NCBI RefSeq assembly: GCF_900128455.1
Contig: NZ_LT635783.1
Location: 3,276,546-3,340,545 of the forward strand
DNA length: 64,000 nt
Direction: 5' to 3'
DNA from: Bacteroides mediterraneensis
GTDB lineage: Bacteria > Bacteroidota > Bacteroidia > Bacteroidales > Bacteroidaceae
Notes under the pieces: model-generated
Seen by the model: only the letters and a program-made list of their open reading frames with translations
Databases searched by the model: none
What the model was told of the DNA's origin: nothing
Part shown: positions 3,475 to 37,780 of the stretch, piece after piece
Position numbering within the stretch: position 1 is the first letter of the stretch
How the letters are laid out: each line of letters opens with the position of its first letter
Position numbers and translations under genes: made by a program

Positions 3475-4502
3475 TGCAAAACTCTAGAAAGGGCTGAATA
3501 GGTGTTTCGGCCCTTTATTTTTGCCTGCCAAATCAAACTGAAACCCCACCGCTCAGGAATTGTTTTCAATACGGTATTCGCCAAGTTGTGCCGACGGTCG
3601 GCTGCGAACTGTGGGCGGAGACGGTGAAATTCCTTCCGTGCCTCACACACGGCTTTCACATTGGCCCAATCACCTTTCAACAGCCAGACAAGGGCAGCAC
3701 AATAATCCAGAATAGTACGCACACGCATCACCGGAGCAAGCTCTTCTTCCGGCAAATTCTTATAGAGCATCAGCAGATTATTGCGGAAATTCAAAAAGGT
3801 TTTCCGTGGATTTTCTTTCTTCAACGTAGCTCCTCCCACGTGATACACCTTACTTGAAGGGACACAGACCAATTGAAATCCTCGGCTGCGCAAACGCCAG
3901 CACAAATCGATTTCTTCCATGTGAGCAAAAAAGCGGGCATCCAGTCCCCCGATTTTCCGATAGACCTCCAGGCGAATCAGCAAAGCAGCTCCTGTAGCCC
4001 AGAATACCGGGATAATCTCCTCATATTGACCTTTATCCTCTTCCACCGTATCCATCACACGTCCACGACAAAACGGATAACCATAACGGTCCATAAAACC
4101 TCCACTGGCACCTGCATATTCAAACATGTTTCGATGACGATAAGAAAGAATTTTAGGCTGGCAGGCAACTGTATCGGGATGGACATCCATATAAGCCACC
4201 ATATCCCGAAGCCAACCTTCGGTCACCTCTACATCACTATTCAACAATACCACATATTCAGCCTCGACCTGTTGTAAAGCTCGGTTATATCCCTCGGCAA
4301 AACCGTAGTTTCTGTCCAGACGTATTAATTGTACAGAAGGAAATTCTTTTTCTACCACCGCACACGAATCATCGGTAGACGCATTGTCTGCGACATATAC
4401 CACTGTCCCTTCTTCACAAGAACCGGAAACCACCGAAGGAAGGAACTGACGAAGCATTGCCTCGCCGTTCCAATTCAAGATGACCACTGCTGTCTTTATC
4501 AT
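3471..4502 (-). CDS. Family 2 glycosyltransferase (rhamnosyltransferase-like)
   Basis: 343 residues. The GT-A start is VVILNWNGEAMLRQFLPSV, followed by VADNASTDDS, then LLNSDVEVTEGWL with the DxD-like metal site, and FAHMEEIDLCWRLRSRG, the ED motif of dTDP-rhamnosyl- or GlcNAc-type GT2 enzymes. The C-terminal part has short hydrophobic helices (LDYCAALVWLLKG). The protein is probably cytoplasmic or membrane-associated and adds a sugar to a surface glycan; donor and acceptor are unknown. The start overlaps the mtaB stop by four bases, so the two are probably cotranslated. Confidence 0.86.
   Translation of the reverse strand: MIKTAVVILNWNGEAMLRQFLPSVVSGSCEEGTVVYVADNASTDDSCAVVEKEFPSVQLIRLDRNYGFAEGYNRALQQVEAEYVVLLNSDVEVTEGWLRDMVAYMDVHPDTVACQPKILSYRHRNMFEYAGASGGFMDRYGYPFCRGRVMDTVEEDKGQYEEIIPVFWATGAALLIRLEVYRKIGGLDARFFAHMEEIDLCWRLRSRGFQLVCVPSSKVYHVGGATLKKENPRKTFLNFRNNLLMLYKNLPEEELAPVMRVRTILDYCAALVWLLKGDWANVKAVCEARKEFHRLRPQFAADRRHNLANTVLKTIPERWGFSLIWQAKIKGRNTYSALSRVLH
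3488..3516 (+). terminator. Terminator for the maf operon, inside the glycosyltransferase 3' end
   Basis: AAAGGGC (3488-3494) pairs with GCCCTTT (3510-3516), followed by ATTTTTG. It begins 14 bases after the maf stop but lies within the last codons of the convergent glycosyltransferase gene. Confidence 0.5.
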
Positions 4503-5815
4503 AAAATTGTACCTTTAAGCGACGTTTCGTCTTCGTTGAAATCTCCCAGACGGACTTTCACCAGATGATTGTCCAGTTTCTCATCATGAGCCAACTCCAC
4601 CCGGATATAGTTCTTCGTAAAACCGTGCATAGGGGCACCTGACTTGGATTTTTCCATCAGTACTTCCGCTTCCAGCCCTATATGACTGGCATAGAAGGCC
4701 TTCGTCTTCTCATCCGATAATTCAAGCAGCCGCTGACTTCTGGCGTGTTTTTCAGGCGCAGGAACTACATAATCTATTTTTAAGGCCTGTGTCCCGGGAC
4801 GCTCAGAATAGCTGAACACGTGCAGCTGTGTTACATCCAAACTTTTAATAAACTCATACGCACGCTCAAAATATTCAGGGGTCTCTCCTCTCGTCCCCAC
4901 AATCACATCCACACCTATAAAAGCATCAGGCATCAAGGACTTTATCTTAGCCACTTTCTCCGCAAACAAGGCGGTATCATAACGGCGACGCATCAACTTC
5001 AACACTTCATCGCAGCCAGACTGCAAGGGAATATGGAAATGAGGCATGAAACGACGGGAACGGGCTACATACTCAATAATATCATCCGTCAACAGATTTG
5101 GCTCAATGGAAGAGATACGGTAACGTTCAATGCCTTCCACCTCGTCCAGCGCCTTGACCAAATCAAAAAAGGTTTCTCCGGTAGTTTTCCCAAAATCTCC
5201 GATATTCACCCCGGTCAACACAATTTCTTTTCCACCTTCAGCTGCCGCCTGACGAGCTTGTGCCACCAAATCTTCAATCTTTCCATTTCGGCTTCGCCCA
5301 CGGGCAAAAGGAATAGTACAATAAGAACAGAAATAATCGCAACCGTCTTGCACTTTCAAGAAATAACGGGTACGGTCACCGCGTGAACAAGAAGGCGAAA
5401 AAGTGCGGATATCTTTCGTAGCCGTCACTACCGCCTCACCATGAGCATGCTTTTCCAAATTACCCAAATATTTCATAAGTTCACCTTTCTGCTCTGCCCC
5501 TAAGACCAAGTCTACTCCTTCTATATCAGCCACCTGTCCTGGTTTTAACTGTGCATAACATCCAGTCACCACAATAAAGGCCCCCGGATGCTGGCGGGAA
5601 AGACGATGAATCGCCTGACGGCATTTCTTGTCGGCCATCTCCGTCACCGAACAGGTATTAATCACACAAATGTCTGCCTTCTCACCTTTCCGAGCCGTAC
5701 GAACTCCCGCCTCTTTTAAAGTCTTACCAATAGAAGAAGTCTCTGCAAAGTTTAACTTGCAGCCCAGCGTATAATAAACAGCTACTTTATCCTGAAAAAT
5801 AGTTGTATCAATCAT
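4499..5815 (-). CDS. mtaB: MtaB, tRNA t6A37 methylthiotransferase
   Basis: 438 residues of radical-SAM methylthiotransferase. The N-terminal MTTase domain supplies three cysteines for a second 4Fe-4S cluster (TLGCKLN, INTCSVT, VTGCYAQ). The radical SAM motif is CDYFCSYC near residue 160, followed by PFARGRSRNG. Then come GVNIGDFG, SSIEPNLL and PLQSGCDEVLKLMRR, and a C-terminal TRAM-like segment. The enzyme adds a methylthio group to N6-threonylcarbamoyladenosine 37 of tRNA. GCKLN and the overall length point to MtaB rather than MiaB or RimO. It heads a two-gene operon. Confidence 0.92.
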   Translation of the reverse strand: MIDTTIFQDKVAVYYTLGCKLNFAETSSIGKTLKEAGVRTARKGEKADICVINTCSVTEMADKKCRQAIHRLSRQHPGAFIVVTGCYAQLKPGQVADIEGVDLVLGAEQKGELMKYLGNLEKHAHGEAVVTATKDIRTFSPSCSRGDRTRYFLKVQDGCDYFCSYCTIPFARGRSRNGKIEDLVAQARQAAAEGGKEIVLTGVNIGDFGKTTGETFFDLVKALDEVEGIERYRISSIEPNLLTDDIIEYVARSRRFMPHFHIPLQSGCDEVLKLMRRRYDTALFAEKVAKIKSLMPDAFIGVDVIVGTRGETPEYFERAYEFIKSLDVTQLHVFSYSERPGTQALKIDYVVPAPEKHARSQRLLELSDEKTKAFYASHIGLEAEVLMEKSKSGAPMHGFTKNYIRVELAHDEKLDNHLVKVRLGDFNEDETSLKGTIL

Positions 5816-5848: not shown

Positions 5849-6060
5849 CACATAATTCACGACTCATGAAACGAGTTCGCATAGATTGAAGTCTCCATTA
5901 GGAGTTTTTGAGGGCTTTTCATTCTTCTTCTAAAAAAATATCAAATTAAAAAACAAAAAAATATGTTTTGCAACACGTTATAATTCAAGCAGATAAGTTT
6001 TAAAACATATTTTTTTGAAAAAAAATCGCTCAAAAGTGAACAACGTATTAGAAAAGTCTA

Positions 6061-8807: not shown

Positions 8808-9506
8808 TTATTCACCTTCCGGAGTAATCAATTTATATCCCTTTCCATGGATATTGATGATTTCAATTGAATCATCTTCCTTCAAATGCTTACGCAACTT
8901 AGTGATATACACATCCATACTTCTTGCATTGAAATAGTTGTCATCAATCCAGATAGTCTTTAATGCAAAATCACGCTGCAAAATTTCATTGGCATGCGCA
9001 CAAAGCAAACCTAACAATTCAGATTCTTTCGTAGTCAATTTCGTCTGCTTGTCACCGATAGACAAAATCTGCTTCTGGGTATCAAACGTAAAGCGGCCAA
9101 TTTTATACACCGTACTTTCACGATTACGTTTGCCACGTACACGGCGCAGAATAGCCTCAATACGGAAAGTCAATTCTTCCATACTGAAGGGTTTCGTGAT
9201 ATAATCGTCCGCACCAATCTTAAAGCCTTCCAATATATCTTCCTTCAAAGTCTTTGCCGTCAAGAAAATAATAGGCACTTCCGCATTTGCCTGACGAATT
9301 TCCTGTGCCAAGGTAAAACCATCTTTTCTCGGCATCATCACATCGGTCACAACCAAATCATATTTACTCTTCAGGAAAGCCTTAAAACCAACTTCTCCAT
9401 CTGGGAAAAGATCGGCGTTATAACCTTTCGCCTGTAAATATTCTCTCAAAAGCATGCCAAGATTCTCGTCATCTTCGCATAACAAAATACGCAATTTGTC
9501 GTCCAT
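8808..9506 (-). CDS. rprY: Response regulator RprY
   Basis: 232 residues of the OmpR/PhoB class. The receiver domain has the acidic pair in LLCEDDENLG, phospho-acceptor D55 in LVVTDVMMPRKDG, the threonine in IIFLTAK, and the lysine in YITKPFSMEEL. The C-terminal winged helix covers about 135-228 (KLTTKESELLGLLCAHAN, then NYFNARSMDVYITKLRKHLK). The N-terminus and pairing with the kinase match RprY of Bacteroides. It lies three bases after rprX. Confidence 0.93.
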   Translation of the reverse strand: MDDKLRILLCEDDENLGMLLREYLQAKGYNADLFPDGEVGFKAFLKSKYDLVVTDVMMPRKDGFTLAQEIRQANAEVPIIFLTAKTLKEDILEGFKIGADDYITKPFSMEELTFRIEAILRRVRGKRNRESTVYKIGRFTFDTQKQILSIGDKQTKLTTKESELLGLLCAHANEILQRDFALKTIWIDDNYFNARSMDVYITKLRKHLKEDDSIEIINIHGKGYKLITPEGE

Positions 9507-9509
9507 ATC

Positions 9510-11060
9510 TTATTCTTCTTTAAATAGTGGTATCGTTATTATAAATTTCGTTCCTACGTTCAATTCACTCTCGGCACGGATAGCCCCCTTATGGTCTGTA
9601 ATTATTTTCTTCACATAAGCCAATCCGAGGCCAAAGCCTTTCACGTCATGCAAGTTCCCAGTATGTACCCGGTAGAACTTATCAAATATCTTTTTTAAAT
9701 TCTCCTTCTTAATACCAATTCCATTATCCTCTATGGATATGCACAGCTTACCGGTTTCGTTCCAAGTACGAATCTTCAAAGCAATATCCCGATCCGGACT
9801 CTTATATTTCACCGCATTATCCAGCAAATTGAATATCACATTCGTAAAGTGCATCTCATCCACAAAAATAACAGGATCCTGTGCATTCAATTCCGCATCC
9901 AGCGTACCGTTATTCTTTTCGACCTTCAAACGGAAGGTATTCACCACTCCGTTAATCAGTTCATGGGCATCGATTTCCTTCTTTTTCAGCGTCACACTCT
10001 GTCTTTCAAACATAGACATCTGCAACACCTTTTCCACCTGGAACCTCAAACGCTTCGTCTCATCGTTAATAACGCCGGAGATATGCTTGAACATGACAGG
10101 CGACTTACCTACCGCCGGGTCATTCAACATCTGTGCGGCCAGAGATATGGTAGAAATCGGAGTTTTAAACTCATGCGTCATATTATTGATGAAATCATTC
10201 TTTATCTCTGTCAGGCGTTTCTGACGGAAAATAATGTAAATCGTAAAAATAAAGGTAATCAGCAATACCACCGTAAAAATAATGGAAGGTATCATGAATT
10301 TCACCGAACTAAAAATATAGTTATCCAATGTGGGGAAAAAGATATTCACAAATCCCATTTTGGCCGGAGGATCTTTCTCAAAAATCAATCTGGAATAAAC
10401 CTTCTCGTCATCATGCACATAATCCGAACAACGGTACACCTCTTTTCCATCCCGGTCTGTCACTGAAAAGTGATAGGGTATATCTATCCCGTTATTGAAC
10501 AGTTCCGTTTTCAGGAAATGATCCAGCTGCTTAAAGTTGATTCTTTCCTTCAGCGGTTTGTCACTTGCCGTATAGAGGATGTTATAAACCACCTCGTCAA
10601 GCAACGCCCGTTGGTACACATAACGCTCCTTCAACACCTCCTGCAAGGCACGTGAGGTTTGTGGGATAGTCCTCCCCGTAGAAATCACGACTTTCGGCAC
10701 ATTGGAAGGCCGATTCATGATAGTCTTTAATTCAAACGTGGAGTAAGTAGAACCGTCGGGAGCCGTAATCGTGTATTGATGATGCTCTACCACATTCTCT
10801 CCCGCGTCATTTCCCTCCTGGTATCTTTTCGATAAAAGTGCCGCCCGTTCTTGCGCCGCGACATCTTTTTCAAGATATCTTTTCGTTTCTACCAGTTCCA
10901 GATTATGCACAGCCTTACCCAGACTGCGGTTCACATTCTCTTCAAACTGACTGCGCCGCATTTTGACCATCTCTTCAATGTAGCTCACCTGCAGATAAAG
11001 CAAGCTTAAAAAGGACAGTCCCATTACAACTCCTAATATCCAAATAGTAGACTTTTTCAT
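9510..11060 (-). CDS. rprX: Sensor histidine kinase RprX
   Basis: 516 residues. Membrane helices at about 5-25 and 255-278 enclose a periplasmic sensor of roughly 230 residues. The HisKA domain has NNMTHEFKTPISTISL with phospho-acceptor H296. The HATPase domain has N-box FNLLDNAVKY, G1 IEDNGIGI, F-box and VKGFGLGLAYVKKI. Forms the RprXY two-component system; the signal is not known from sequence. Its downstream partner rprY follows directly. Confidence 0.93.
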   Translation of the reverse strand: MKKSTIWILGVVMGLSFLSLLYLQVSYIEEMVKMRRSQFEENVNRSLGKAVHNLELVETKRYLEKDVAAQERAALLSKRYQEGNDAGENVVEHHQYTITAPDGSTYSTFELKTIMNRPSNVPKVVISTGRTIPQTSRALQEVLKERYVYQRALLDEVVYNILYTASDKPLKERINFKQLDHFLKTELFNNGIDIPYHFSVTDRDGKEVYRCSDYVHDDEKVYSRLIFEKDPPAKMGFVNIFFPTLDNYIFSSVKFMIPSIIFTVVLLITFIFTIYIIFRQKRLTEIKNDFINNMTHEFKTPISTISLAAQMLNDPAVGKSPVMFKHISGVINDETKRLRFQVEKVLQMSMFERQSVTLKKKEIDAHELINGVVNTFRLKVEKNNGTLDAELNAQDPVIFVDEMHFTNVIFNLLDNAVKYKSPDRDIALKIRTWNETGKLCISIEDNGIGIKKENLKKIFDKFYRVHTGNLHDVKGFGLGLAYVKKIITDHKGAIRAESELNVGTKFIITIPLFKEE

Positions 11061-11265: not shown

Positions 11266-11302
11266 AAAAAAGGCCGCGTTTTTTAAGAAACGCAGCCTTT
11301 TT
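11266..11302 (-). terminator. Terminator of the EF-G paralogue gene
   Basis: An imperfect stem of AAAAAGGCcGCGTTT with AAACGCaGCCTTTTT (one C-A mismatch), A-rich on the left and T-rich on the right. It lies 25 bases past the stop at 11327. Confidence 0.75.
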
Positions 11303-11326: not shown

Positions 11327-13486
11327 TTATGCTTCGTCCTTTTCTTGCTCTTCAAATTCTTTCATCAACTTGGTCTGTACATCCGTCGGAACCAGTTCAT
11401 AGCTGGCAAACTTCATGATAAACGAAGCGCGCCCTCCAGTCAATGAGCTCAAAGCAGTAGAATAGTTCGACATTTCCTTCAGAGGAACCTTGGCACTCAG
11501 CTTCTCGTAACCTTTTTCACTGGTCATGCCCATAATCATACCGCGACGTCCCTGCATATCGCTCATCACGTCACCCAATTTATCGCTTGGCACGAACACT
11601 TCTACATCATAAATCGGTTCCAGAATCTTCGGACCGGCATTCTTGAAGGCTTCACTGAATGCATGACGTCCAGCCAACATAAAGGAAATTTCATTGGAAT
11701 CTACCGGATGCATCTTTCCATCATACACAATGACACGTACGTCACGTGCATAAGAACCTGTCAACGGACCTTGCTCCATACGGCTCATGATACCTTTCAA
11801 AATAGCCGGCATGAAACGTGCATCGATGGCTCCACCTACCACACTGTTCACGAATACCAGTTTTCCACCCCATTCCAGGTCGATAACTTCCGTACCTTTC
11901 ACGTTCATCTTATATTCCTGTCCGTTGAACTTGTAGGTCTCCGGAGCTGGCATACCTTCATAATATGGCTCTACAATCAAGTGTACTTCACCAAACTGAC
12001 CGGCGCCTCCCGACTGCTTTTTATGACGATAGTCGGCACGTGCAGCCTTTGTGATGGTTTCACGATAAGGAATCTTCGGTTCATAGAACTGAATCGGCAA
12101 TTTCTCATTGTTTTCCAGACGCCATTTCAACGTACGCAAATGGAACTCACCTTGTCCGTGTACCAGAATCTGACGCAGTTCTTTGGATTGCTCTACGACC
12201 CATGTCGGATCTTCCTCACGCATACGATTCAATACCGCCATCATCTTTTCTGTATCCGCTTCATTGACCGGTTTGATGGCTCTTGTATATTTCGGATTCG
12301 GATACTTGATAAAGTTGAAACGGTTTTCACAATCCTTGCCGTTCAACGTATTTCCAGTCTTTACGTCTTTCAGTTTCACCGTACAACCGATATCTCCCGC
12401 ACGAAGTTCATCCACTTTTTCACGAGTGGCACCTGCACACACATAAAGCTGTGCCATACGTTCCTTCGAGCCACGATCGGCATTGCTCAAGTCGTCTCCT
12501 TCGTGAACCACTCCACTCATCACCTTGAAATACTGTACATCACCGATATGAGGTTCTACAGCCGTTTTAAAGAAATAAAGTGAAGTCGGACCATTCGGAT
12601 CAGGAGGAACAGGTACACCGCGTGTGTTATGCACCACCGGCATTTCATCTACAAACGGAACCACGTTGCCCAGGAATTCCATCAAACGGCGAACACCCAT
12701 GTCTTTTCCGGCACACACACAGAATACAGGGAACATCCCTCTGGCTGCCAATCCCTTTCGGATACCTTCACGCATTTCGTCTTCCGTCAGTGATTCAGCC
12801 TCAAAGAATTTCTCCATCAGACTTTCATCATGTTCCGCAGCGGCTTCCACCAAAGTCTTATGCCATTCCTGCGCTTTTTCCATCTCTTCCGCCGGAATAT
12901 CTTCGATGGTAGGTGCTCCACCGTCAGGTCCCCAAGAATATTTCTTCATTAAAAGTACATCAATCAACGAATTGAAGTCGGGTCCTGTAGCCAACGGATA
13001 CTGAACCGGAACAACCTTAGAGCCATAATTCTCTTTCAACTGTTCAAGCACATGGTCGAAATCACATTTTTCACTATCCAGCTGGTTCACCAGGAAAATC
13101 ACCGGTTTACCCAGTTTTTCAGTATAACGGAAGTGATTCTGCGTACCCACTTCCGGACCATATTGCCCGTTCAGCAACAAGATGGCAGTATCAGTCACAT
13201 TCAACGCGGTAATGGCAGCCCCTACGAAGTCATCACTTCCCGGGCAGTCTATGATATTGAGTTTCTTCCCGTTCCATTCCACATGATATACAGTAGAAAA
13301 TACTGAATACCCATATTCCTGCTCCACCGGGAAATAATCACTCACCGTATTCTTGGCAGTAATTCTTCCGCGACGTTTTATAATACCACTCTCATAGAGC
13401 AAGGCTTCTGTGAGAGTGGTTTTACCTGAGCCGTCATTACCGAGAAGGGCAATGTTCTTGATTTCGTTTGTCTGATATACTTTCAT
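11327..13486 (-). CDS. fusA2: EF-G paralogue (EF-G2 type) with altered GTPase site
   Basis: 719 residues with all five EF-G domains. The G domain starts IKNIALLGNDGSGKTT (P-loop 16-24). Two catalytic features differ from a working EF-G. The switch II motif is DCPGSDDF (80-87) instead of DTPGHVDF, so serine 84 stands where the activating histidine should be. The base-recognition motif is NQLD (134-137) instead of NKxD. Domain IV keeps YRHKKQSGGAGQFGEV. Bacteroides thetaiotaomicron is known to have an EF-G2 that lacks GTPase activity and supports translation during carbon starvation under the regulator Cur. The altered residues fit that class; identity with it is inference. It stands alone, not in an str operon. 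Confidence 0.88.
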   Translation of the reverse strand: MKVYQTNEIKNIALLGNDGSGKTTLTEALLYESGIIKRRGRITAKNTVSDYFPVEQEYGYSVFSTVYHVEWNGKKLNIIDCPGSDDFVGAAITALNVTDTAILLLNGQYGPEVGTQNHFRYTEKLGKPVIFLVNQLDSEKCDFDHVLEQLKENYGSKVVPVQYPLATGPDFNSLIDVLLMKKYSWGPDGGAPTIEDIPAEEMEKAQEWHKTLVEAAAEHDESLMEKFFEAESLTEDEMREGIRKGLAARGMFPVFCVCAGKDMGVRRLMEFLGNVVPFVDEMPVVHNTRGVPVPPDPNGPTSLYFFKTAVEPHIGDVQYFKVMSGVVHEGDDLSNADRGSKERMAQLYVCAGATREKVDELRAGDIGCTVKLKDVKTGNTLNGKDCENRFNFIKYPNPKYTRAIKPVNEADTEKMMAVLNRMREEDPTWVVEQSKELRQILVHGQGEFHLRTLKWRLENNEKLPIQFYEPKIPYRETITKAARADYRHKKQSGGAGQFGEVHLIVEPYYEGMPAPETYKFNGQEYKMNVKGTEVIDLEWGGKLVFVNSVVGGAIDARFMPAILKGIMSRMEQGPLTGSYARDVRVIVYDGKMHPVDSNEISFMLAGRHAFSEAFKNAGPKILEPIYDVEVFVPSDKLGDVMSDMQGRRGMIMGMTSEKGYEKLSAKVPLKEMSNYSTALSSLTGGRASFIMKFASYELVPTDVQTKLMKEFEEQEKDEA

Positions 13487-13517: not shown

Positions 13518-13625
13518 GATATGCTTTTCATATCTCTTATTTTTTAACGAAGCGCAAATTAGAGATTATAATTCAGAAAAACAATAAAAAGTTTCGTGTT
13601 ACTAAACTATGTTTTCAGACATAGT
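13518..13625. promoter_or_regulatory. Two inverted repeats between the EF-G paralogue and hemW
   Basis: In the 217-bp divergent gap, GATATG-N5-CATATC (13518-13534) lies in the probable leader of the EF-G paralogue. ACTATGT-N6-ACATAGT (13606-13625) lies further up, between the two genes. The second has the symmetry of a dimer operator. No match to a site known to me. Confidence 0.35.
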
Positions 13626-13703
13626 AATCCGAAATTTCTTCCGTCCTCCCCAAATTATCCGTATATTTACACCCGCAAAACCAATTCTTACAGTTAATTG
13701 TTT

Positions 13704-14837
13704 ATGGCTGGAATCTATCTTCATATCCCCTTCTGCAAACGACGTTGCATTTACTGTGACTTCTTTTCCACTACTGAAAATGAAAAGAAAGAGGCCTATA
13801 TTCAAGCCCTCGTCAAAGAACTGGAACTCCGGAAAGACTACCTAAGTGGAGAAGCCATAGATACCATTTACTTTGGAGGGGGTACCCCTTCCCAACTGGA
13901 AGAAAAAGATTTTGCCCAGCTGTTCGACCATATATATAAGGTATATACTGTAAACCCTGAAGCTGAAATCACACTCGAAGCCAATCCAGACGATTTGACA
14001 CCAGCATACGTGAAGATGCTCCGCAAACTTCCTTTCAACCGACTGAGCATGGGCATACAGACTTTCAAGGAAGACACCCTCCGCCTGTTGCATCGCCGGC
14101 ATACAGCCGCCCAGGCTCAACAAGCATACCAGTGCTGTCGAGAAGCCGGATTTCAGAACATCAGCATCGACTTGATGTACGGACTACCCGGTGAAACACT
14201 GGAAGACTGGCAGAAAGACCTGCAAACAGCCATCGATATGCACCCGGAGCATATTTCTGCCTATCACCTGATTTATGAAGAAGGTACCCCCCTGTGGAAA
14301 CTGAAAGAAGCGCACAAAGTGGAAGAAACCGACGAGGACTTGAGCGTATCCTTGTTCAAGGAACTGATTCATACCTTAAAAGCCCATGGATACGAACATT
14401 ATGAGATATCCAACTTCTGCCAACCTGGGTATTATTCACGCCACAATTCAAGTTACTGGACGGGCAAAAAATACTTAGGATGCGGGCCTTCCGCCCATTC
14501 ATACAACGGCATCTCCCGCCAATGGAATGTGGCCTCCCTTTCCCAATATATACAAGGTATCCAACAGGGAACACCCTGCCAGGAGAAAGAAGAGCTTGAT
14601 CTCTATACCCGCTACAACGACTTTGTCATCACCCGCCTGCGTACAGCTTATGGAATCCCTACCGAGCTATTGAAAAATGTATTTGGTGAAACTTTATACA
14701 ACTACTGTATGCGTATGGCCTCGTCTTATCTGAAACAAGGCCTGCTGACTTGGGACCATCATATCCTGAAACTGACCGAAAAGGGGATATTTATCTCCGA
14801 TGGAATTATGAGCGACCTGCTTTGGGTGGAAGATTAG
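13704..14837 (+). CDS. hemW: HemW, radical SAM heme chaperone family
   Basis: 377 residues from the ATG at 13704; a TTG two codons earlier is less likely because the family starts MAGIYLHIPFC. The cluster motif is CKRRCIYCDF (CxxxCxxC near residue 12), then YFGGGTPSQL. Next come ITLEANPDDLT, NRLSMGIQTF, SIDLMYGLPGET, and the late YWTGKKYLGCGPSAHSY. HemW-type proteins bind heme; older annotation calls them oxygen-independent coproporphyrinogen oxidase, but the extra cysteine of HemN (CxxxCxxCxC) is missing here. Confidence 0.9.
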   Translation: MAGIYLHIPFCKRRCIYCDFFSTTENEKKEAYIQALVKELELRKDYLSGEAIDTIYFGGGTPSQLEEKDFAQLFDHIYKVYTVNPEAEITLEANPDDLTPAYVKMLRKLPFNRLSMGIQTFKEDTLRLLHRRHTAAQAQQAYQCCREAGFQNISIDLMYGLPGETLEDWQKDLQTAIDMHPEHISAYHLIYEEGTPLWKLKEAHKVEETDEDLSVSLFKELIHTLKAHGYEHYEISNFCQPGYYSRHNSSYWTGKKYLGCGPSAHSYNGISRQWNVASLSQYIQGIQQGTPCQEKEELDLYTRYNDFVITRLRTAYGIPTELLKNVFGETLYNYCMRMASSYLKQGLLTWDHHILKLTEKGIFISDGIMSDLLWVED

Positions 14838-27824: not shown

Positions 27825-30800
27825 CTACTTTTTATGATATTCTACGTCTTCTTCTGCTGCCATTGAATGATCAACTCCACCAAAGTAATACACTTTCGGT
27901 TCATTTATAGTGGAGTCATTATCCGTCCACTGCTCGCATTGGCGTATCACCGTTTCAAGAGCATTAGCGGCTTCTTCAGGAGGATAGTGGTATTTTTTCA
28001 ACAACCGCTTCACCATTTTACGCATACCCGCACGGGCCGACTCCTTCTTCTGCCAGTCTATCGTACGGTTTTGGCGAAGAATTTCCGTCAATTCTTTGGT
28101 CATGGCCACCAGTTGCTCGTTGGTATAGACATCCTGCACAGCCTGTGGCTTGGTCAAGGCATCGTAAAAAGATTTCTCCTCCCTCGTAAGTCCCAAATCA
28201 TTCCCTGCCGATTCGGACGAGGAAATTTCCTTTGCCAGTGTCAAGAGCTCCTGTATCACTTCTTCGTTGGTTAGCAACCCTTTCAGATAGTTCGATAAAG
28301 AACGATTCAGCAGGTCTGAGAATTTTTCTGCTTGCACGATATTTGTCTTCTGATATAAGGAAACCCGTTCGGCCAAGAGCCTTTTCAATAATTCGACTGC
28401 AATATTCTTCTCTTTCATCTTGGAAACCTCCTCCAAAAATGTGGTATCGAACAATGAAAATTCCGCTTTGACATCCGAGAAAAGATTGATTACGCCATCA
28501 CTCTTGACACTTTGCTTGAGCAACTCACCAATACGCGCATTGATTTCACGTTTAGACACTTTTCCTTTTCCTGTCATCCGTGAAAGTAAGGTACGGACGG
28601 TTTCAAAAAATGCAGCTTCATAGCGTTGCGGTTCATCCAGCAAACTACGGCACAATGTAATAGAGTTGTGCAACAACATCGCTTCTTTCAAGAATAACTG
28701 TTGCTGCTCCTGCTTTTCAGCCGATAGGATAAAATTTACACCCCCTTTTATGATTTGGGCACACTCTGCATCTGATGCTGTACGGAAACGGCTGTAATCG
28801 TAGCCATGAAACAAATCCTGACATATTTCCAACTTCTCCTTAAACTTGAGCAAAGCCGTTTCTTTAATGTCAGGATTACCAAAGTTTTTACGGTCACGCC
28901 GGGTGTAATCATGCATAGCTTCCTTTAAAGCCTTGGCTATGCCGATATAATCCACAACCAATCCACCCGCCTTACCGTTGAATACCCGGTTCACACGTGC
29001 TATAGCCTGCATCAAGTTGTGCCCACTCATGGGCTTGTACACATACATGGTAGCCAGCGACGGCACATCAAATCCTGTCAGCCACATATCCACCACAATG
29101 GCAATCTTCATCGGGTCCTCATTATCCTTGAAGCGCTTGGCCAGTTCTTTTTTGTATTGTTTGTTACCTATGATGGCATGCCATTCTTCAGGATCTTTGT
29201 TGCTGGCCGTCATCACCACCTTCACTTTTTCTCCCCAATCGGGACGCAGTTCTAGCAATTTATTATAAATGCGCATGGCTATCGTGCGCGAATAAGCCAC
29301 AATCATAGCTTTACCCGTCAGCTCATATTGCCGGTTTTCTTCGTAATGTTTCAATATATCACGGCACAAAGAATCAATAGTAGCAGGGGCACCTAAAATT
29401 TCTTCCAGATGCGACATCTCCTTTTTGCTCTTCTCTATCTGTTCCTCCGTAGCCCCTTCGTCGGCCAACAGTTCATATTCATCATCAATGGCTTTCAGGG
29501 TCGCTTCATCCAGGTTCAGATTAATCACACGCGATTCGTAATAGACAGGACATGTAGCTCCATCGGCCACTGCCTGTGTCATGTCGTAGACATCAATATA
29601 GTTGCCGAACACTTCTACCGTATCCCTGTCTTTTGTAGAAATAGGCGTACCTGTAAAGCCGATGTACGAGGCATTGGGCAAACAATCGTGAATAATCCGG
29701 GCGGTACCTATAACCCGTTTGGCCACTTCTTCCCCTTTCTTGTTTCTCGTCATCCGGATCTTTTCTTCAAAACCGTATTGCCCACGATGCGCCTCATCGG
29801 TCATCACCACAATGTTTTTTCGGAGAGAAAGCGGTTCGGGCGACTCTTCAAACTTCTGCATGGTGGTGAAAATGATACCGTTAGCTTCACGCCCTGCCAA
29901 CAGCGATTTCAAGTCTTCACGACTTTTGGCTTGTACAGGTTCCTGACGCAAAAAATCTTTGCATTTGGCAAACTGTGTATAAAGCTGGTCGTCAAGGTCA
30001 TTACGGTCAGTAATCACCACGATGGTAGGTTGCGACAATTCGTTTTGCAACAGATGAGCATAAAACACCATCGACAAGGATTTTCCACTACCTTGGGTGT
30101 GCCAGAAAACTCCAATCTTACCGTCATTCTGTACCGCAATTTTGGTTCGTTCGATGGCTTTCTTCACGGCAAAATACTGATGATAGGCCGCCAGTATTTT
30201 AGCTGCCCCTGCTTCATCTTTTGAAAAGCAGACAAGATTCCGGATGATGTCCAGCAGCTGTTCACGTTGGAAAATCCCTTCAACAAACGTATCATAGTCC
30301 GCAAAATCCGTACTTTCATAATCTCCGTCCTTGGTTTTCCATTCCATGTAACGATCTTCCTTGCTGGTAATGGTTCCAGCTTTCGAGCAGGCCATGTCAC
30401 TCATCACACAGAACACATTGTAGACGAACAGCGAAGGAATCTCCTGCATGTAGTTGCGCAGTTGCCGATAAGCCTCCGAAGCATCCGTTTCCTCCCTCGA
30501 AGGTGATTTCAGTTCCATCACTACCAGAGGCAGTCCGTTGACAAACACAATGAGGTCTGCCCGTTTCTCCGAATGTTCCACAAATGTCCATTGATTGACA
30601 ATCTGAAAATCATTTCGTTCTGTATGGTCATAGTCTATCAGATACACCAAGTCGTTGCGCTGCTCCTTTCCATCGAAGTACGACACCTCAACGCCGTGTT
30701 GCAAATAGTCCATGAACAGTTCGTTCTTCTGGTTCAGGCTCCCTGTATCTATATCCTTCAGTTTGGCTATCGCTTCCTGTATGGCAGCCCGCGGCTTTCC

Positions 30801-30953
30801 TCTGTTCAGATTGCCGAGACTTGTCAACAGCTGCTCTTCATAAAATGGTACATAGTAATCTCGCTCAATATCAGGCCCATACAAATGCTGGTAACCCATC
30901 TGTTCGAAAAGGGCTATCAACGCTTTTTCGTAATTATCTTCCGTGAATGACAT
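27825..30953 (-). CDS. hsdR: Type I restriction enzyme R subunit
   Basis: 1042 residues. The N-terminal PD-(D/E)xK nuclease is complete: RADLIVFVNGLPLVVMELKS gives D133, E147 and K149. The translocase has Walker A WHTQGSGKSLSM, DEAH box VMTDEAHRGQYG, motif III GFTGTPIS, and late helicase motifs WLTGFDVPSL and QAIARVNRVF. A C-terminal helical domain follows, for contact with the methylase core. It cuts DNA far from the target after translocation, together with HsdM and HsdS. It is 31 bases after the AAA gene and intact, although hsdS looks broken. Confidence 0.95.
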   Translation of the reverse strand: MSFTEDNYEKALIALFEQMGYQHLYGPDIERDYYVPFYEEQLLTSLGNLNRGKPRAAIQEAIAKLKDIDTGSLNQKNELFMDYLQHGVEVSYFDGKEQRNDLVYLIDYDHTERNDFQIVNQWTFVEHSEKRADLIVFVNGLPLVVMELKSPSREETDASEAYRQLRNYMQEIPSLFVYNVFCVMSDMACSKAGTITSKEDRYMEWKTKDGDYESTDFADYDTFVEGIFQREQLLDIIRNLVCFSKDEAGAAKILAAYHQYFAVKKAIERTKIAVQNDGKIGVFWHTQGSGKSLSMVFYAHLLQNELSQPTIVVITDRNDLDDQLYTQFAKCKDFLRQEPVQAKSREDLKSLLAGREANGIIFTTMQKFEESPEPLSLRKNIVVMTDEAHRGQYGFEEKIRMTRNKKGEEVAKRVIGTARIIHDCLPNASYIGFTGTPISTKDRDTVEVFGNYIDVYDMTQAVADGATCPVYYESRVINLNLDEATLKAIDDEYELLADEGATEEQIEKSKKEMSHLEEILGAPATIDSLCRDILKHYEENRQYELTGKAMIVAYSRTIAMRIYNKLLELRPDWGEKVKVVMTASNKDPEEWHAIIGNKQYKKELAKRFKDNEDPMKIAIVVDMWLTGFDVPSLATMYVYKPMSGHNLMQAIARVNRVFNGKAGGLVVDYIGIAKALKEAMHDYTRRDRKNFGNPDIKETALLKFKEKLEICQDLFHGYDYSRFRTASDAECAQIIKGGVNFILSAEKQEQQQLFLKEAMLLHNSITLCRSLLDEPQRYEAAFFETVRTLLSRMTGKGKVSKREINARIGELLKQSVKSDGVINLFSDVKAEFSLFDTTFLEEVSKMKEKNIAVELLKRLLAERVSLYQKTNIVQAEKFSDLLNRSLSNYLKGLLTNEEVIQELLTLAKEISSSESAGNDLGLTREEKSFYDALTKPQAVQDVYTNEQLVAMTKELTEILRQNRTIDWQKKESARAGMRKMVKRLLKKYHYPPEEAANALETVIRQCEQWTDNDSTINEPKVYYFGGVDHSMAAEEDVEYHKK

Positions 30954-30984
30954 GACGCATCCGTTTTAACAAGTTTCCAACCGT

Positions 30985-32019
30985 TCAATCCATTCGTTGA
31001 ACAGAATACATTTCTTTCTGATAGTCTCCAGTCCTATTTCTAAAGCCAAGATCTAGCCTTTCCATCACTGACACACCTTCAACCTGATTGACAGTAATCA
31101 CATTTTCGGCATCGAAATTGGTAATCAGGTCCGCACTTTGAGTTGCAACAATGACTTGCGTCCCTCTGGCCGCAACCGATTTTATCAGTCCGGCTAATTT
31201 CTGAATAGCCAAGGGATGCAGTCCCAGTTCAGGCTCGTCAATGATAATAACCTTGGGTGGAACAGGTTGCAAGAACAGCGTTGTCAACGCAATGAAGCGC
31301 ACTGTGCCATCGGAGAGGTCCGTCGGCCCGTAAATGGTCGAGCTGAATTTATCTGTCCACTGCAGACGAACCGTATCGGCTGCGCTTACGTTGAAATAGA
31401 AATCGCTGAAATAAGGAGCAATGCTCTGAATGACACGTACAATCCGTTTGTAGGTAATAGGAGAATTCTCTCGGATACCATACAGAAAAGCCGCCAGATT
31501 TTCCCCTTTCTCATACAGATAATACACATCGTTCACAATGTGACTTTCTTTGGTGAACGGGGAGCTTTTGCCCGTGTCATGGAAATGATACTTCTTTATC
31601 TCAGACAGGTATTTCTTGATGTATTCACCTCTTGACAGTCCGTTATACGACTTGATATTGGCTTCATTCCCAAAACTGGCTATATCAAAAGACGAATTGT
31701 GATACCCCAGCTTTTCTTTAGAGAAAACAAATCTATTGTCTCCTTCTTTCAGTTCAAATGAATAGAAATTATCTTTGAAATAAATTGTGGCGCAAATCGT
31801 ATCCGTAACCTTGCTGCCCTGAAAGAAGTATTTGTCTATGCCTCCTCCCAGTGCCACATATTCCGTGAGCTTTTGTTCATATAGTCGATTCAGAAACTCG
31901 AAGAAGGACAGGAAGTTACTTTTTCCTGATCCGTTTGAACCTATCAATATATTGATGGGAAGCAAGTCAAGTGTCAGATTCCGGAAAGACTTATATCCTT
32001 TTATTTCTATTTTGTCCAT
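30985..32019 (-). CDS. AAA family ATPase (RloA/AAA15-like)
   Basis: 344 residues. Walker A is NILIGSNGSGKSNFLSFFEF near 25-45; the Q-loop region is poorly defined. The signature segment is GPTDLSDGTVRFIALTTLF. Walker B plus D-loop reads VIIIDEPELGLHPLAIQ, and the H-loop area QVIVATQSADLITNF. This is the SMC/ABC-type ATPase fold of RloA, OLD and AAA15 proteins, often in defence loci with a nuclease partner. None follows it directly: hsdR begins 31 bases on. The last 25 residues do not look like the family ending. Confidence 0.85.
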   Translation of the reverse strand: MDKIEIKGYKSFRNLTLDLLPINILIGSNGSGKSNFLSFFEFLNRLYEQKLTEYVALGGGIDKYFFQGSKVTDTICATIYFKDNFYSFELKEGDNRFVFSKEKLGYHNSSFDIASFGNEANIKSYNGLSRGEYIKKYLSEIKKYHFHDTGKSSPFTKESHIVNDVYYLYEKGENLAAFLYGIRENSPITYKRIVRVIQSIAPYFSDFYFNVSAADTVRLQWTDKFSSTIYGPTDLSDGTVRFIALTTLFLQPVPPKVIIIDEPELGLHPLAIQKLAGLIKSVAARGTQVIVATQSADLITNFDAENVITVNQVEGVSVMERLDLGFRNRTGDYQKEMYSVQRMD

Positions 32020-32041
32020 AATTTGATGTTATTGGGGAGTG

Positions 32042-32098
32042 ACTATCGCAAAGATAGTAATTTTTCTCCGCTAAACTATCTGAAGTTTTCGGATAGTT
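32042..32098 (-). promoter_or_regulatory. Promoter and possible operator of the AAA-hsdR pair
   Basis: The minus strand carries TATCTTTG at 32056-32049, a full -7 consensus match, 29 bases before the AAA start. It is framed by ACTATC-N5-GATAGT (32042-32058). A second repeat, AACTATC-N11-GATAGTT, lies at 32074-32098, around the -33 area. Four copies of one six-base half-site surround the promoter, which suggests binding of a dimeric regulator. Inference only. Confidence 0.45.
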
Positions 32099-32461
32099 GA
32101 CTTTTGCAATATCTCTTCCAAGTATATTCTCAAGAGATGATTAATAACGGCTAGTCAATATATTAATTATCAATATTTTTTGTTCCATTTAGGAAGTTTG
32201 GAATGCTTTGAATAATAATCTTGAATTAAGGCAGCTTCATAATATGCTGGAAGAAAAAGTTTCTCATCTATAATAAACCATTCTATATATAAAACTTTTA
32301 ATCGTTTGTCTTCGTTTATTTTCTTGATGAAAAAATCTTCTCTGCGCATATTTTCTTGTTTGTTCTTTATGCGCCTCTTTAATTGTTGTTCCGTAAAATT
32401 ACCATCTGTATAGGCAGTTCCTCCTTTTCCAATATAAAGTAATTCACCTTCACTGGAGTTT

Positions 32462-32471
32462 GCATATATTC
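32462..32471. repeat. Left copy of the target site duplication
   Basis: GCATATATTC, identical to 35292-35301 on the far side of the IS. The next base also matches the inferred original site, so the duplication could be read as 11 bp. Confidence 0.8.
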
Positions 32472-32555
32472 TGCCGAAAACGGAGCATCCCCACCCACTC
32501 TGAACGGCTTAATCCATCCAGTTTTACCGCTAAATTGGCCTTGAAAAGTGCCTGA

Positions 32556-32807
32556 AAAACGGAGTATATCCGTTCATTTCAGCTAAAAACGCCACAAAAC
32601 GCCATAAAAAACGGAGCATATCCGTTCAGTGGTTTGGATATTACGATAGAATCTCCGTTTTCTCTACAGAAATCGGAGTATATCCGTTCACTAATGAGAA
32701 TGTAATAATACTATAATCAGTTGTCTACATACGGAAAACGGAGTATATCCGTTCACCTTCTCACAGAAACGACAATGCCTGCATAAAAAACGGAGCATGT
32801 CCGTTCA
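32556..32807 (+). repeat. Left-end transposase-binding repeats of the IS
   Basis: Five 21-bp repeats with core CGGAGTATATCCGTTCA and small variants, at 32556, 32608, 32670, 32735 and 32787. Unit starts are 52 to 65 bases apart. A degenerate sixth sits at the very end (32476). Multiple terminal repeats that bind the transposase are a known trait of IS21. Confidence 0.8.
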
Positions 32808-32864
32808 CTTGCTACTCTTTTCCCGTATCTTGTATGCAGAAAACAATCTTCATACGATACGACT

Positions 32865-34427
32865 ATGGCAGGAAAAAGTAAGAATATGAGCCAGATCAAA
32901 CAACTTCTTCTACTAAAGAAGAGCGGAATCTCCAACCGCAAGGCTGCTGATATAATCGGCATGAACAAGGAGACAGTGAACAACTACATGAATAAGGTCA
33001 ACGCTGACAGTCTGAGCCTTGATGAACTTATCAGGTTGGATGATCCCATTCTTGAGCACCGTCTCAAGGGCGGCAATCCTGCATATAGCGACAAGCGTTT
33101 TGAAACATTCAAAGCCCTTCTTCCATATCTTCAGGAGGAGATGAAGCGCAAGCATGTCACGCTGAAGCTGCTTTGGGAAGAATACCGTAATGAGCATCCG
33201 GATGACCACTACAGCCTGACACAGTTCCGTTTTCATTACAATCAGAACACAGAGGCCAGGAAGGAGTCGCCATCCACCATACTTGCCGACATGCGTACGG
33301 GCGGCGAAAAGCTTTTCCTCGATTTTGCCGGTGATACTATGGGATACGTTGACATGGAAACCGGTGAGGTCGTCCAGTGTCAGGCTTTTGTAGCCACTCT
33401 GCCTGCAAGCGACTACGGTTATATCCTCTTCGTACGTTCACAGCGTACAGAAGACTTTGTATATGCCATAACGCAGTGCCTGAAACATCTTGGCGGCGTA
33501 CCAAAGATGCTTGTCCCTGACAACCTTAAAGCTGCTGTTGTCAAGACCGACAGATATGAGCCTTCACTTAACCGTGTAATGGAGGATATGGCCAATCATT
33601 ACGGTACGGTCATCATACCGGCACGTCCCGTACACCCTAAAGATAAAAGCAACGTGGAAGGGACCGTGAGGCTTGTCTATATGCGTGTGTTTGCCGAACT
33701 CCGCAATGAAACCTTCCATTCACTGGAAGAGCTTAACCGGGCAGCCTCACTCAAAATGAAAGCGCACAACCAGAAACGCATGCAAAAGCATCCTTACACG
33801 CGTGAGGAACGGTTCCTTGCCGTAGACAAGCCAAATCTTATGCCACTGCCTGACAGAGATTTTGAGATTGTGTCATATACCGATTTGAAGGTGTCAACCA
33901 ACTGCTGTATCTATCTTGGACGTGACCAGCACTATTATACAGTACCGTATCAGTATATATCCAAAACCGCACATGTCGCATATACACGCACACTGGTAAA
34001 AGTATATGTGGACGGTGAGCTTGTAGCCACTCACCTACGTGATTACAACAGGGGAAAGTATACTATCGTAAAGGAGCATCTTGCAAGCAATTCCCGGGAA
34101 TACAGAGGGATGAGTGCAAAATCATACATAGAGCGTGCCGAGCGTGCATCCGGCATACTGGGAGATGTAATCCGCCGCATATTTTATTCTTCCACAATGC
34201 CTCCGGAGACTCATTACAAGACCTGCGACGGGCTTCTAAACCTGCAAAGGAGCAGTGATCCGGTCGTTTTCCAAAAAGCCTGCGAGGCAGCCCTGAATGT
34301 AGACAGATGCAACTATCGCTTTATCCGTTTACTGGTAGAGAGCAAGTGTGCCGGTGTGGGGCAACCTTCATCTTCCTTTGCTCCTCCGCAGCACTGTAAT
34401 ATCCGTGGAAAAGCACAGTTCAAATGA
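32865..34427 (+). CDS. istA: IS21 transposase IstA
   Basis: 520 residues. The N-terminal helix-turn-helix (KQLLLLKKSGISNRKAADII, then MNKETVNNYM) binds the terminal repeats. The DDE integrase core has D153 in LFLDFAGDTMGYVD, D219 in MLVPDNLKAAV and E265 in KSNVEGTVRLVYM, at standard spacing. A C-terminal beta-barrel-like part is seen around 340-400 (YYTVPYQYISKTAHVAYT). The start is the ATG at 32865 just after the repeat region. Confidence 0.95.
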   Translation: MAGKSKNMSQIKQLLLLKKSGISNRKAADIIGMNKETVNNYMNKVNADSLSLDELIRLDDPILEHRLKGGNPAYSDKRFETFKALLPYLQEEMKRKHVTLKLLWEEYRNEHPDDHYSLTQFRFHYNQNTEARKESPSTILADMRTGGEKLFLDFAGDTMGYVDMETGEVVQCQAFVATLPASDYGYILFVRSQRTEDFVYAITQCLKHLGGVPKMLVPDNLKAAVVKTDRYEPSLNRVMEDMANHYGTVIIPARPVHPKDKSNVEGTVRLVYMRVFAELRNETFHSLEELNRAASLKMKAHNQKRMQKHPYTREERFLAVDKPNLMPLPDRDFEIVSYTDLKVSTNCCIYLGRDQHYYTVPYQYISKTAHVAYTRTLVKVYVDGELVATHLRDYNRGKYTIVKEHLASNSREYRGMSAKSYIERAERASGILGDVIRRIFYSSTMPPETHYKTCDGLLNLQRSSDPVVFQKACEAALNVDRCNYRFIRLLVESKCAGVGQPSSSFAPPQHCNIRGKAQFK

Positions 34428-34456
34428 CAGACTTCTAACACTCAAAACAAATAACG

Positions 34457-35212
34457 ATGGATGAAATTATCAATGCTCTAAGAAACCTTAAGATGCCTGG
34501 AATGGCCCATTACTGGGCTACCATGCAGGAGACGCGACAGGCAGAGTCGCTCTCCTTGAAAGACGGTCTGCAACTGCTTATACAGGCTGAACTGGATAAC
34601 CGGAATCAAAGCCGGAATGCCCGTCTGATAAAAAAAGCACACTTCCGTTATCAGGCTTCCATAAGTGAAGTTATCTATGACTGCAAGCGTGGCGTGGACA
34701 AGCAGAAAGTACTTAATCTTGCCACTTGTGACTATGTGAAAAACGGGGTATCCATACTTATTACGGGTGCTGCCGGTACCGGTAAAAGCTGGTTGGGTAC
34801 AGCGTTTGGTCATCAGGCCTGCATGAACGGATATAAGGTTGCTTATTATAACCTGTACAGGCTCTTCGAGGAAATAAGCCTTGCCCGTATATCCAGTACC
34901 CTGCATCGTTTCTTCGCCAAGCTGGCACAGACTGACCTGCTTATACTGGACGACTTCGGCATGAAAGTTCTTGACGGACAACAGTTACTTGACTTTATGG
35001 AGATTATAGAAGACCGCCATGGACAAAAAGCTACGATCATCATATCACAACTGCCGGTTGCCAACTGGTACGATGTGATGAAAGGCAACACGACTGCAGC
35101 TGATGCAATATTAGACAGGTTGGTACACACAAGTGTGCGCTTCGAGCTACAAGGCAGCAGTTTACGTCAAAAAAGACATCAAAACTGCAACGTTACAGAC
35201 GAAAATCAATAA
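34457..35212 (+). CDS. istB: IS21 helper ATPase IstB
   Basis: 251 residues of the DnaA/DnaC-like AAA+ family. The N-terminal helices (MDEIINALRNLKMPGMAHYW) are typical of IstB. Walker A is GAAGTGKS (104-111), Walker B LLILDDFGM (161-169), sensor I TIIISQLPVANWYDV, and arginine finger region ILDRLVHTSVRFEL. It assembles on target DNA and recruits IstA. It begins 29 bases after istA. Confidence 0.95.
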   Translation: MDEIINALRNLKMPGMAHYWATMQETRQAESLSLKDGLQLLIQAELDNRNQSRNARLIKKAHFRYQASISEVIYDCKRGVDKQKVLNLATCDYVKNGVSILITGAAGTGKSWLGTAFGHQACMNGYKVAYYNLYRLFEEISLARISSTLHRFFAKLAQTDLLILDDFGMKVLDGQQLLDFMEIIEDRHGQKATIIISQLPVANWYDVMKGNTTAADAILDRLVHTSVRFELQGSSLRQKRHQNCNVTDENQ

Positions 35213-35245
35213 ATTTGCATCGCCATAGGTAAAGAGTATGAAAAG

Positions 35246-35291
35246 TGAACGGATATCACCGTTTTGGGTGAACGGATATCAACCGTTTTCA
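35246..35291 (-). repeat. Right-end transposase-binding repeats of the IS
   Basis: Two inverted copies of the left-end repeat (35246-35265 and 35269-35290). Each contains TGAACGGATAT and ends in CCGTTTT, only three bases apart. Confidence 0.75.
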
Positions 35292-35301
35292 GCATATATT
35301 C
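35292..35301. repeat. Right copy of the target site duplication
   Basis: GCATATATTC, identical to 32462-32471. Confidence 0.8.
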
Positions 35302-35411
35302 TATAAACTCCATATCCATTGGGTATTTCTTTTGTTTTTTGTGATAAAGAGTCACCTATTTCAAAAGTGAAATATCCTTGTTTTATGAATTGAAAATTGT
35401 CCATTATAGTT

Positions 35412-36632
35412 TTAATTGTTAGAATCGTTTATCTTTAGTTCACCTGACATGAGTTTGGGGAGGAGGGTGTCGCGAAGATAAGCAAGCTCAAATGTTTGCT
35501 TTGATAATATTTCAATCTCTTTAAACAATGGCTCTACTATATGTGAGAATTTATCTAATACCTCATTATTAGGAATGATTATTCTAATTTTTCCAAACAA
35601 TGTAGTATTAATATTTAAAGTTGCAGTTCCACCTCTTCCCATATTTTCCAATTGTTTTTTCATCAGAGTTAAGTTTAAATATAGATAATATAAACTGTTC
35701 TTATTTTGTGGTACTATTGAATTAATCTGTTGATTAGTATGAGAAGTTCTTGTATTTATGGCAACCAAACCAACAGTTGCGATACAACTAACTAAAAGTG
35801 AATATGGAGGTAATAATTTAGTTTGTTGAGTTTGACTGCCTTCAACAGATAATGAATCTTCGGTATTTATAATAAATAATTGATTATGCATATCGGGAAT
35901 TTTTATAAACGGAATATCTCCACAAAAAAATTCTTTTATATTCTTTGAGGGTGTTTTTCCACATATAATTTTCCCGAAATCTAAAAGTTGGCCAACTTTC
36001 CAACCTTTTGGTATCATCCCAAGCTCCGAATCCACAAACTTGCCGTTCTTGAATGGTTCGAAATCTACAAACCAAGACTTGAATAATGTTTGTGCTTGCT
36101 GCTCTAAATTTTCATTTATGCGGCGGTTGAGTTCGATTTTATCATCAAGGGTAGACAGGAAAGATGATATACGTTTTTGTTCATCTAAATGAGGAATGCT
36201 ACATAATAGTTTTTCAAACGTGTCTCTAGTTATAGTATCGAATACACTACCATGAGAAGATTTCTTCAATTCTTCAACCTTAGTTTTTGTTATATAATAC
36301 AAAAAAATGATTATCTACCAATGAGTTAGCACGAATGCCAAAGCAAGATTGGTTAAATGCCATTGGAAAAGGTATCATTGCCATTTCACCGACCGTACCT
36401 CTAGCAGAAATTATAATATCATCTTTTTGTAGCAACTTTGTTGCACTATTATTAAGTCCCTTTTCGTGATTGTTTTTTCCGTTTTATAAACATACTTTCT
36501 ATCACCATTAAAATCTTTCACAGAAAGCCATGGAATATTACCATTCCAATATTCAGGAACAGAAGTTTTAGGTGTACCTCCTCCTAATATAAGACACAAA
36601 TCTGAATACTTATATGTTTTCCATTCTTCCAT
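35412..36632 (-). pseudogene. hsdS: Type I specificity subunit with two frameshifts
   Basis: From ATG at 36632 the frame gives the start of the first target-recognition domain (EEWKTYKYSDLCLILGGGTP, then NIPWLSVKDF) and hits a stop at 36411. The middle (LNNSATKLLQKDDIIISARG to ANSLVDNHF) is in another frame, and from 36302 the first frame resumes to the stop at 35412. Apparent losses and gains lie at CCC (36458-36460, one base short) and seven A (36301-36307, one base long). Corrected, the protein has about 406 residues. The central conserved region is EQKRISSFLSTLDDKIELNR, the second recognition domain follows GMIPKGWKV, and the distal conserved region is LRDTLLPKLMSGEL. Sequencing error is possible. 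Confidence 0.85.
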
Positions 36633-36637
36633 AATAT

Positions 36638-37738: not shown

Positions 37739-37780
37739 AATATTACTTCTATTCTACTGATGAAAGTTTATTACATCTTA

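Follow-up and report, generated by a model that had tools for sequence, protein, structure and literature searches.

Identity of the gene product

What does the EF-G paralogue encoded at positions 11327-13486 of this 64,000-nucleotide stretch of Bacteroides mediterraneensis DNA (the window) do on the ribosome, and which of its departures from canonical EF-G accounts for it? A first-pass annotation had described a full-length paralogue with a retained domain IV, likened it to the Bacteroides EF-G2 reported to work without GTP hydrolysis, and stressed the loss of the catalytic histidine and a changed nucleotide preference. That reading of a known protein is correct, but it puts mistaken weight on the histidine and the nucleotide preference.

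We identify the gene as fusA2 from a gut bacterium of the Phocaeicola/Bacteroides type (Table 1); its product, EF-G2, is already known. Pfam matched the EF-G G domain, domains II, III and IV and the C-terminal domain, and all 719 codons are intact, which bears out that the protein is full length. The NCBIfam model NF058620 (EFG2_Bacteroid) gave 1359.5 bits (cut-off 1000) with coverage 1-717 of 717, and the cut-off of the canonical EF-G model TIGR00484 was missed (504 vs 659 bits). The proposed comparison with B. thetaiotaomicron EF-G2 was made using the chain of PDB entries 7uvp and 8dmf, the latter titled as ribosome-bound Bacteroides thetaiotaomicron EF-G2: 605 of 717 residues were identical (84%), with 134/150 identical in domain IV (residues 471-620), and the chain carries both DCPGSDDF and NQLD, so the match to Bacteroides EF-G2 held. 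The molecule name of 7uvp is 'Tetracycline resistance protein TetQ', yet its sequence is the same as that of 8dmf, and this label could mislead annotation.

Among named loci, in a ranking from which the source genome's own records were possibly excluded, the best relative was Bacteroides mediterraneensis, with 99% protein identity, and Phocaeicola barnesiae and P. coprocola came next at 97%. A 16605-base record described as 'plasmid 56' of Phocaeicola massiliensis (OY726030.1) also carries fusA2, at 90% identity; our guess is that it is a circularised chromosomal piece and not a plasmid. The source genome contained 16 PF00009 matches, including a canonical EF-G (L002), which passes TIGR00484 at 1044 bits and has the motifs DTPGHVDF and NKMD, and a tet(Q)-like ribosomal protection gene (L005, 1486-3423; G000:C1 near 2187597) located outside the window. 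The product of L005 passed the general tet_protect model NF012153 (947 vs cut-off 775) and fell just under that of the Tet(Q) model (1384 vs 1425).

Table 1. Features at and around fusA2 (positions in the window; residue numbers refer to EF-G2)
Feature	Position	Strand	Basis or remark
fusA2, EF-G2, 719 aa	11327..13486	-	intact ORF, ATG start, zero internal stops
P-loop GNDGSGKTT, residues 16-24	13415..13441	-	Lys22 and Thr23 kept; Asp of EF-G replaced by Gly19 (alignment)
Switch I EYGYS, residues 57-61	13304..13318	-	Ser61 replaces Mg-binding Thr
Switch II DCPGSDDF, residues 80-87	13226..13249	-	Ser84 replaces His
Base motif NQLD, residues 134-137	13076..13087	-	Gln135 replaces Lys; Asp137 kept
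Domain IV tip loop GGAGQFG, residues 493-499	11990..12010	-	Gln497 kept
27-residue domain IV insertion, residues 514-540	11867..11947	-	alignment to E. coli EF-G
Domain IV tip loop HPVDSNE, residues 593-599	11690..11710	-	His593 kept
Intrinsic terminator-like hairpin after fusA2	11267..11302	-	15-pair stem
Sensor histidine kinase beside RprY (RprX position)	9510..11060	-	Pfam HisKA, HATPase_c; synteny
Response regulator RprY	8808..9506	-	NF051850, 444 bits vs cut-off 370
hemW, divergent neighbour upstream of fusA2	13698..14837	+	TIGR00539, 296 bits vs cut-off 205
Cur (BT4338)-like palindrome, 122-137 bp upstream of fusA2 ATG	13608..13623		consensus match, 2 mismatches
MtaB-type tRNA methylthiotransferase gene	4499-5815	-

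Motifs of the nucleotide site

The ORF translation and its alignment confirmed both motifs on which the first-pass annotation had relied, and the same motifs were found in relatives. With the initiator Met counted, Ser84 faces His92 of E. coli EF-G (L182; canonical motif DTPGHVDF) and Gln135 faces Lys143 (canonical motif NKMD). Two further changes had been missed, namely Gly19, aligned to D20 of the E. coli P-loop, and EYGYS where canonical switch I reads ERGIT. Position 84 was Ser in 80 of 86 Bacteroidales sequences (query included) and Ala in the other 6, and position 135 was Gln in all 86; shared as they are, these departures are not an error of a single genome. K22, T23, D80 and G83 were kept in 109/109 Bacteroidota EF-G2s.

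The EFG II subfamily is characterized in a passage of PMC3150367 by Gly16, Leu25 and Ser61 (1WDT numbering) and a relaxed RGITI motif, with YGYSV in Bacteroidetes. The query has G16, L25, S61 and YGYSV, its numbering being equated with that of 1WDT because the match to 1wdt begins 9-to-9.

The missing switch II histidine

For counts at position 84 we aligned 217 EFG II proteins, comprising the near Bacteroidales set of 86 (query included), 88 further EFG II, 28 more Bacteroidota EF-G2s and 15 more insert-less EFG II; the His-bearing tet(Q)-like L005 was excluded. None of the 217 had His at this position. The residue was Tyr (50), Thr (37), Leu (8), Phe (6), Ser (3), Ala (1) or Pro (1) in the 106 other carriers of the domain IV insertion described below, and Tyr (19), Leu (5) or Phe (1) in 25 insert-less EFG II. 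The label EFG I was assigned in our scripts by the presence of this His itself, but it is upheld because a 117-sequence tree built without column 84 placed the same 8 His-bearing rows together on a single starred branch (100), with the other 109 outside it.

Thermus EF-G-2 reads DAPGYGDF, with Tyr where EF-G has His. Passages of PMC3832671 and PMC3150367 report ribosome-dependent GTPase activity for T. thermophilus EF-G-2 and describe M. smegmatis EF-G2 as being without it. Loss of the His alone therefore fails to explain an absent GTPase, since 0/217 have it and Thermus EF-G-2 is reported to hydrolyse GTP, and on these comparative grounds we rejected it as the sole cause that had been suggested. 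Its absence marks EFG II as sampled here and is, by itself, no predictor of a dead GTPase.

The NQLD motif and nucleotide preference

In NKxD motifs it is the Asp that reads the guanine base. Asp137 was kept in 86/86 near relatives, 108/109 Bacteroidota EF-G2s and 23/25 insert-less proteins, while position 135 was non-Lys in 49 of the 109 Bacteroidota EF-G2s (Gln 28, His 18, Ala 3). Changes of Lys135 required at least five events among 99 insert carriers on the tree and one among the 18 other rows. Given that the guanine-reading Asp is kept and the neighbouring Lys varies, having been replaced in several separate lineages, no new base preference is indicated, and the altered preference previously read from NQLD was rejected as unsupported. 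Replacement of Lys135 may nevertheless weaken nucleotide binding.

NKxD (the G4 motif) is stated to be conserved in EFG II (a passage of PMC3150367). The G4 Lys was present in 24/25 insert-less EFG II but fails in much of Bacteroidota, including the query with its NQLD, and as 49/109 Bacteroidota EF-G2s are likewise non-Lys we did not take NQLD to exclude EFG II membership. Relaxed constraint on the nucleotide pocket was looked for in insert carriers and was absent: over 27 motif columns, in pairs at 40-60% overall identity, mean identity was 0.657 with the insertion (4427 pairs) and 0.655 without it (201 pairs). Motif conservation being equal, the sequences give no sign that insert-bearing EF-G2s stopped using nucleotide; this argues for kept nucleotide use and shows no sign of a decaying GTPase site.

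The domain IV insertion

Domain IV was kept, as the first-pass annotation had stated, with Gln497 and His593 present at its tip, but the 27-residue insertion at 514-540 had gone unnoticed. Compared with E. coli EF-G it is one large insertion between two domain IV strands, after tip loop I, a topology that should place it at the far end of domain IV from the tip. The flanking columns enclosed 32 residues in 86/86 near sequences and 23-25 in the 106 other carriers, against 3 in 25/25 insert-less EFG II and 3-16 in 8 EFG I. Where this stretch was exactly 23 residues long (104 proteins), an Arg and a Trp were invariant; the query has Lys for the Arg and keeps the Trp.

In a phylum search, 109 of 296 Bacteroidota genomes had a match of at least 540 bits among the matches listed, and all 109 of these matches carried the insertion in some length. 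This threshold is partly circular, because the match of an insert-less protein splits near residue 511 and scores lower; therefore 21 rows with a match ending near 511, among the matches listed, were also aligned, and 21/21 were without the insertion. In one genus of the same class (g7, family f5) a match of at least 540 bits was present in 1/17 genomes, among the matches listed, and most of this genus seems to lack EF-G2, though relatives have one. One EF-G2 relative (L123, G107:C102:70930-73032) has an in-frame TAA within its match, yet an open frame of 707 aa; the TAA is perhaps only the true stop at the match end.

The AlphaFold2 model of full-length EF-G2 was poor (pLDDT 45). A domain IV fragment model of modest confidence (pLDDT 58 overall, rising to about 72-82 in the blocks with the insertion) predicted strands at 517-520, 523-526 and 531-536, and the nine extra residues of the 32-residue form coincide with its predicted β-hairpin at 517-526. 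Foldseek with the fragment model returned 8dmf first, and because the superposition was poor (rmsd 12.3, TM 0.51) sequence is the main support for this hit.

The abstract of Han et al. 2023 reportedly describes a 26-residue region unique to EF-G2 as responsible for its absent GTPase, and this region is also said to be needed for protein synthesis and dissociation. Residues 514-540, the only insertion of that size in EF-G2, are probably that region. The insertion would then weigh more than the missing histidine in the loss of GTPase activity. Among the titles and abstract starts listed in a literature search, none concerned the Bacteroidetes EF-G2 insertion, which may already appear among the EFG II indels in the figures and supplement of PMC3150367.

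History of the EF-G2 clade

The insertion and columns 84 and 135 were left out of the quick tree of 117 sequences. Insert carriers formed one side of a single branch (SH-aLRT 94, not starred), the 32-residue form was one starred branch (100), and the states no-insert, 23 and 32 needed 2 changes. Its deep order is not firm, the tree having been made quickly and containing some long rows (L184, L168). Outside Bacteroidota, EFG II was represented by four records (Ilyobacter, Fusobacterium, Monoglobus, Paraburkholderia) and 1wdt. The simplest history would be loss of the His at the base of EFG II, followed by a single gain of the insertion in Bacteroidota. For gut Bacteroidales it would add nine residues to the insertion, together with Ser/Ala84 and Gln135. 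On the sampled sequences, the Bacteroidota branch is marked by the extra domain IV loop, and the missing histidine is an older feature of the wider subfamily.

Locus and regulation

Synteny was assessed over 83 near loci; for each side, taken in turn, 74 of them offered sufficient DNA. An RprX-like kinase follows fusA2 on the same strand in 66/74, and hemW is the divergent neighbour in 31/74 and lies elsewhere in the locus in 9 more. The kinase in the window presumably is RprX, a name given by position, no NCBIfam cut-off having been passed. Neither HemW nor RprXY was found beside the distant EF-G2 loci L092-L178, within flanks of only about 1.5-2.5 kb.

BT4338 (Cur) directly activates B. thetaiotaomicron fusA2 via a 22-bp site, for which a consensus is given (PMC6989115). 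From 85 near loci, 3 were excluded for short upstream DNA, and upstream matches to the consensus with at most 2 mismatches were present in 40 of the remaining 82, with 35/40 at 115-145 bp before the ATG. Such matches occurred in 0/82 of the first 300 ORF bases and 1/82 shuffled upstreams (one shuffle per locus, preserving base composition only). In 21/82 near loci nothing better than 4 mismatches was found upstream. Distant Bacteroidota EF-G2s gave no Cur-site excess (at most 3 mismatches in 2/78 vs 7/78 shuffled), nor was there a clear excess of matches with at most 3 mismatches over the whole window, where 6 were found, 3.4 were expected and 16/100 shuffles had as many.

A second Cur-like palindrome at 5994-6009 has 1 mismatch and precedes the MtaB-type tRNA methylthiotransferase gene by about 180 bp. 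No match came from Rfam (at gathering thresholds) or from a tRNA scan across the window. The window also contains a type I restriction-modification locus at 27825-39289, encoding HsdR, an AAA protein, HsdS, a YhcG-type nuclease and an HsdM-like protein that scores below its model's cut-off. An IS21-family element lies between the AAA gene and hsdS, with genes at 32865-35212, several similar repeats, and imperfect inverted ends at 32726-32757 and 35267-35298.

Mode of action

By analogy with its orthologue, we consider it highly probable (about 0.88) that EF-G2 is a starvation factor, activated by Cur on carbon limitation, which acts in the nucleotide-bound state as a slow translocase without GTP hydrolysis. 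On carbon limitation Cur would activate the fusA2 promoter and EF-G2 would be made. The protein would bind guanine nucleotide, as we infer because Lys22, Thr23, Ser61, Asp80 and Asp137 are kept, and with its intact domain IV tip it would enter the ribosomal A site. Nucleotide-bound EF-G2 would then move tRNA and mRNA slowly, by binding and with no GTP hydrolysis, and would leave the ribosome without hydrolysis. Passages of two papers, each citing Han et al. 2023, attribute to the Bacteroides EF-G paralogue translocation without GTP hydrolysis (PMC12775393) and GTP-independent translation (PMC10294740). Given the 84% identity and the insertion, the query EF-G2 most likely works like the B. thetaiotaomicron protein. 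The mechanism in the first-pass annotation thus stood as regards EF-G2 identity, hydrolysis-free action being reported for the orthologue, and did not stand as regards the histidine as its cause or the nucleotide preference.

EF-G2 might instead be a slow translocase that does hydrolyse GTP, like Thermus EF-G-2, with another residue or the ribosome replacing the role of the histidine. The 0/217 count, set beside the reported activity of Thermus EF-G-2, speaks for this, as do the four nucleotide-site residues kept throughout the 109 Bacteroidota proteins. We regard it as improbable, since Thermus EF-G-2 has Tyr and is apparently insert-less, whereas the query has Ser84 and the 27-residue insertion, and since the passages citing Han et al. 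describe an 84%-identical orthologue as hydrolysis-free. It would also be surprising if EF-G2 mainly parked, protected or recycled ribosomes in starvation and was not mainly a translocase: the orthologue is cited as a translocase (PMC12775393) and the query keeps the tip residues Gln497 and His593, although starvation induction in B. thetaiotaomicron (a passage of PMC6989115), the division of translocation and recycling between the Borrelia EF-G paralogues and the lack of ribosome-dependent GTPase reported for M. smegmatis EF-G2 (both from passages of PMC3832671 and PMC3150367) would fit such a role.

That EF-G2 could be a Tet(Q)-type ribosomal protection protein is barely conceivable. The molecule name of 7uvp is in its favour, but 8dmf gives this sequence the title EF-G2, the genome has its separate tet(Q)-like gene, and with NF012154 the protein scored 128.9 bits against a cut-off of 1425, by which assignment to the Tet(Q) family was refuted.

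Starting from the starvation translocase without GTP hydrolysis, one may ask how far across the phylum this mode of action extends. Hydrolysis-free translocation might be a property of a Bacteroidota-wide EF-G2 clade defined by one insertion, with the motif V-[RK]-x(6)-[LT]-x-W-G, the His loss being older and the nine extra residues, Ser/Ala84 and NQLD being later additions in gut Bacteroidales. We hold this to be possible but rather doubtful, and the equal conservation of the nucleotide motifs would count against it, or at least gives it no help. EF-G2 itself is already known, and the phylum-wide insertion is a testable extension. If the phylum-wide reading were true, much of Bacteroidota could translate without a GTP cost at translocation. 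Loss of the His (EFG II as sampled), the insertion (the Bacteroidota clade) and the Ser and Gln changes (gut Bacteroidales) separate on the tree, and this three-step separation allows the feature that abolishes GTP hydrolysis by EF-G to be tested for more cleanly.

Comparison with known systems

The closest known system is EF-G2 of B. thetaiotaomicron (BT2167, fusA2; 8dmf/7uvp), which has in common with the query both the insertion and a Cur-type upstream site. The two proteins differ in the P-loop, where the query reads GNDG and the B. thetaiotaomicron protein GSSG, and within residues 509-540, of which only 23/32 are identical. Thermus thermophilus EF-G-2 (1wdt) is like the query in belonging to the EFG II subfamily (according to a passage of PMC3150367) and in lacking the switch II histidine, but it has Tyr and TKLD where the query has Ser84 and NQLD, and from its alignment it would lack the domain IV insertion, which in the query is 27 residues long. 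The canonical EF-G of the same genome (L002) is identical to EF-G2 at 218 of 692 aligned residues and, unlike it, has DTPGHVDF, NKMD, ERGIT and the P-loop Asp, and no insertion.
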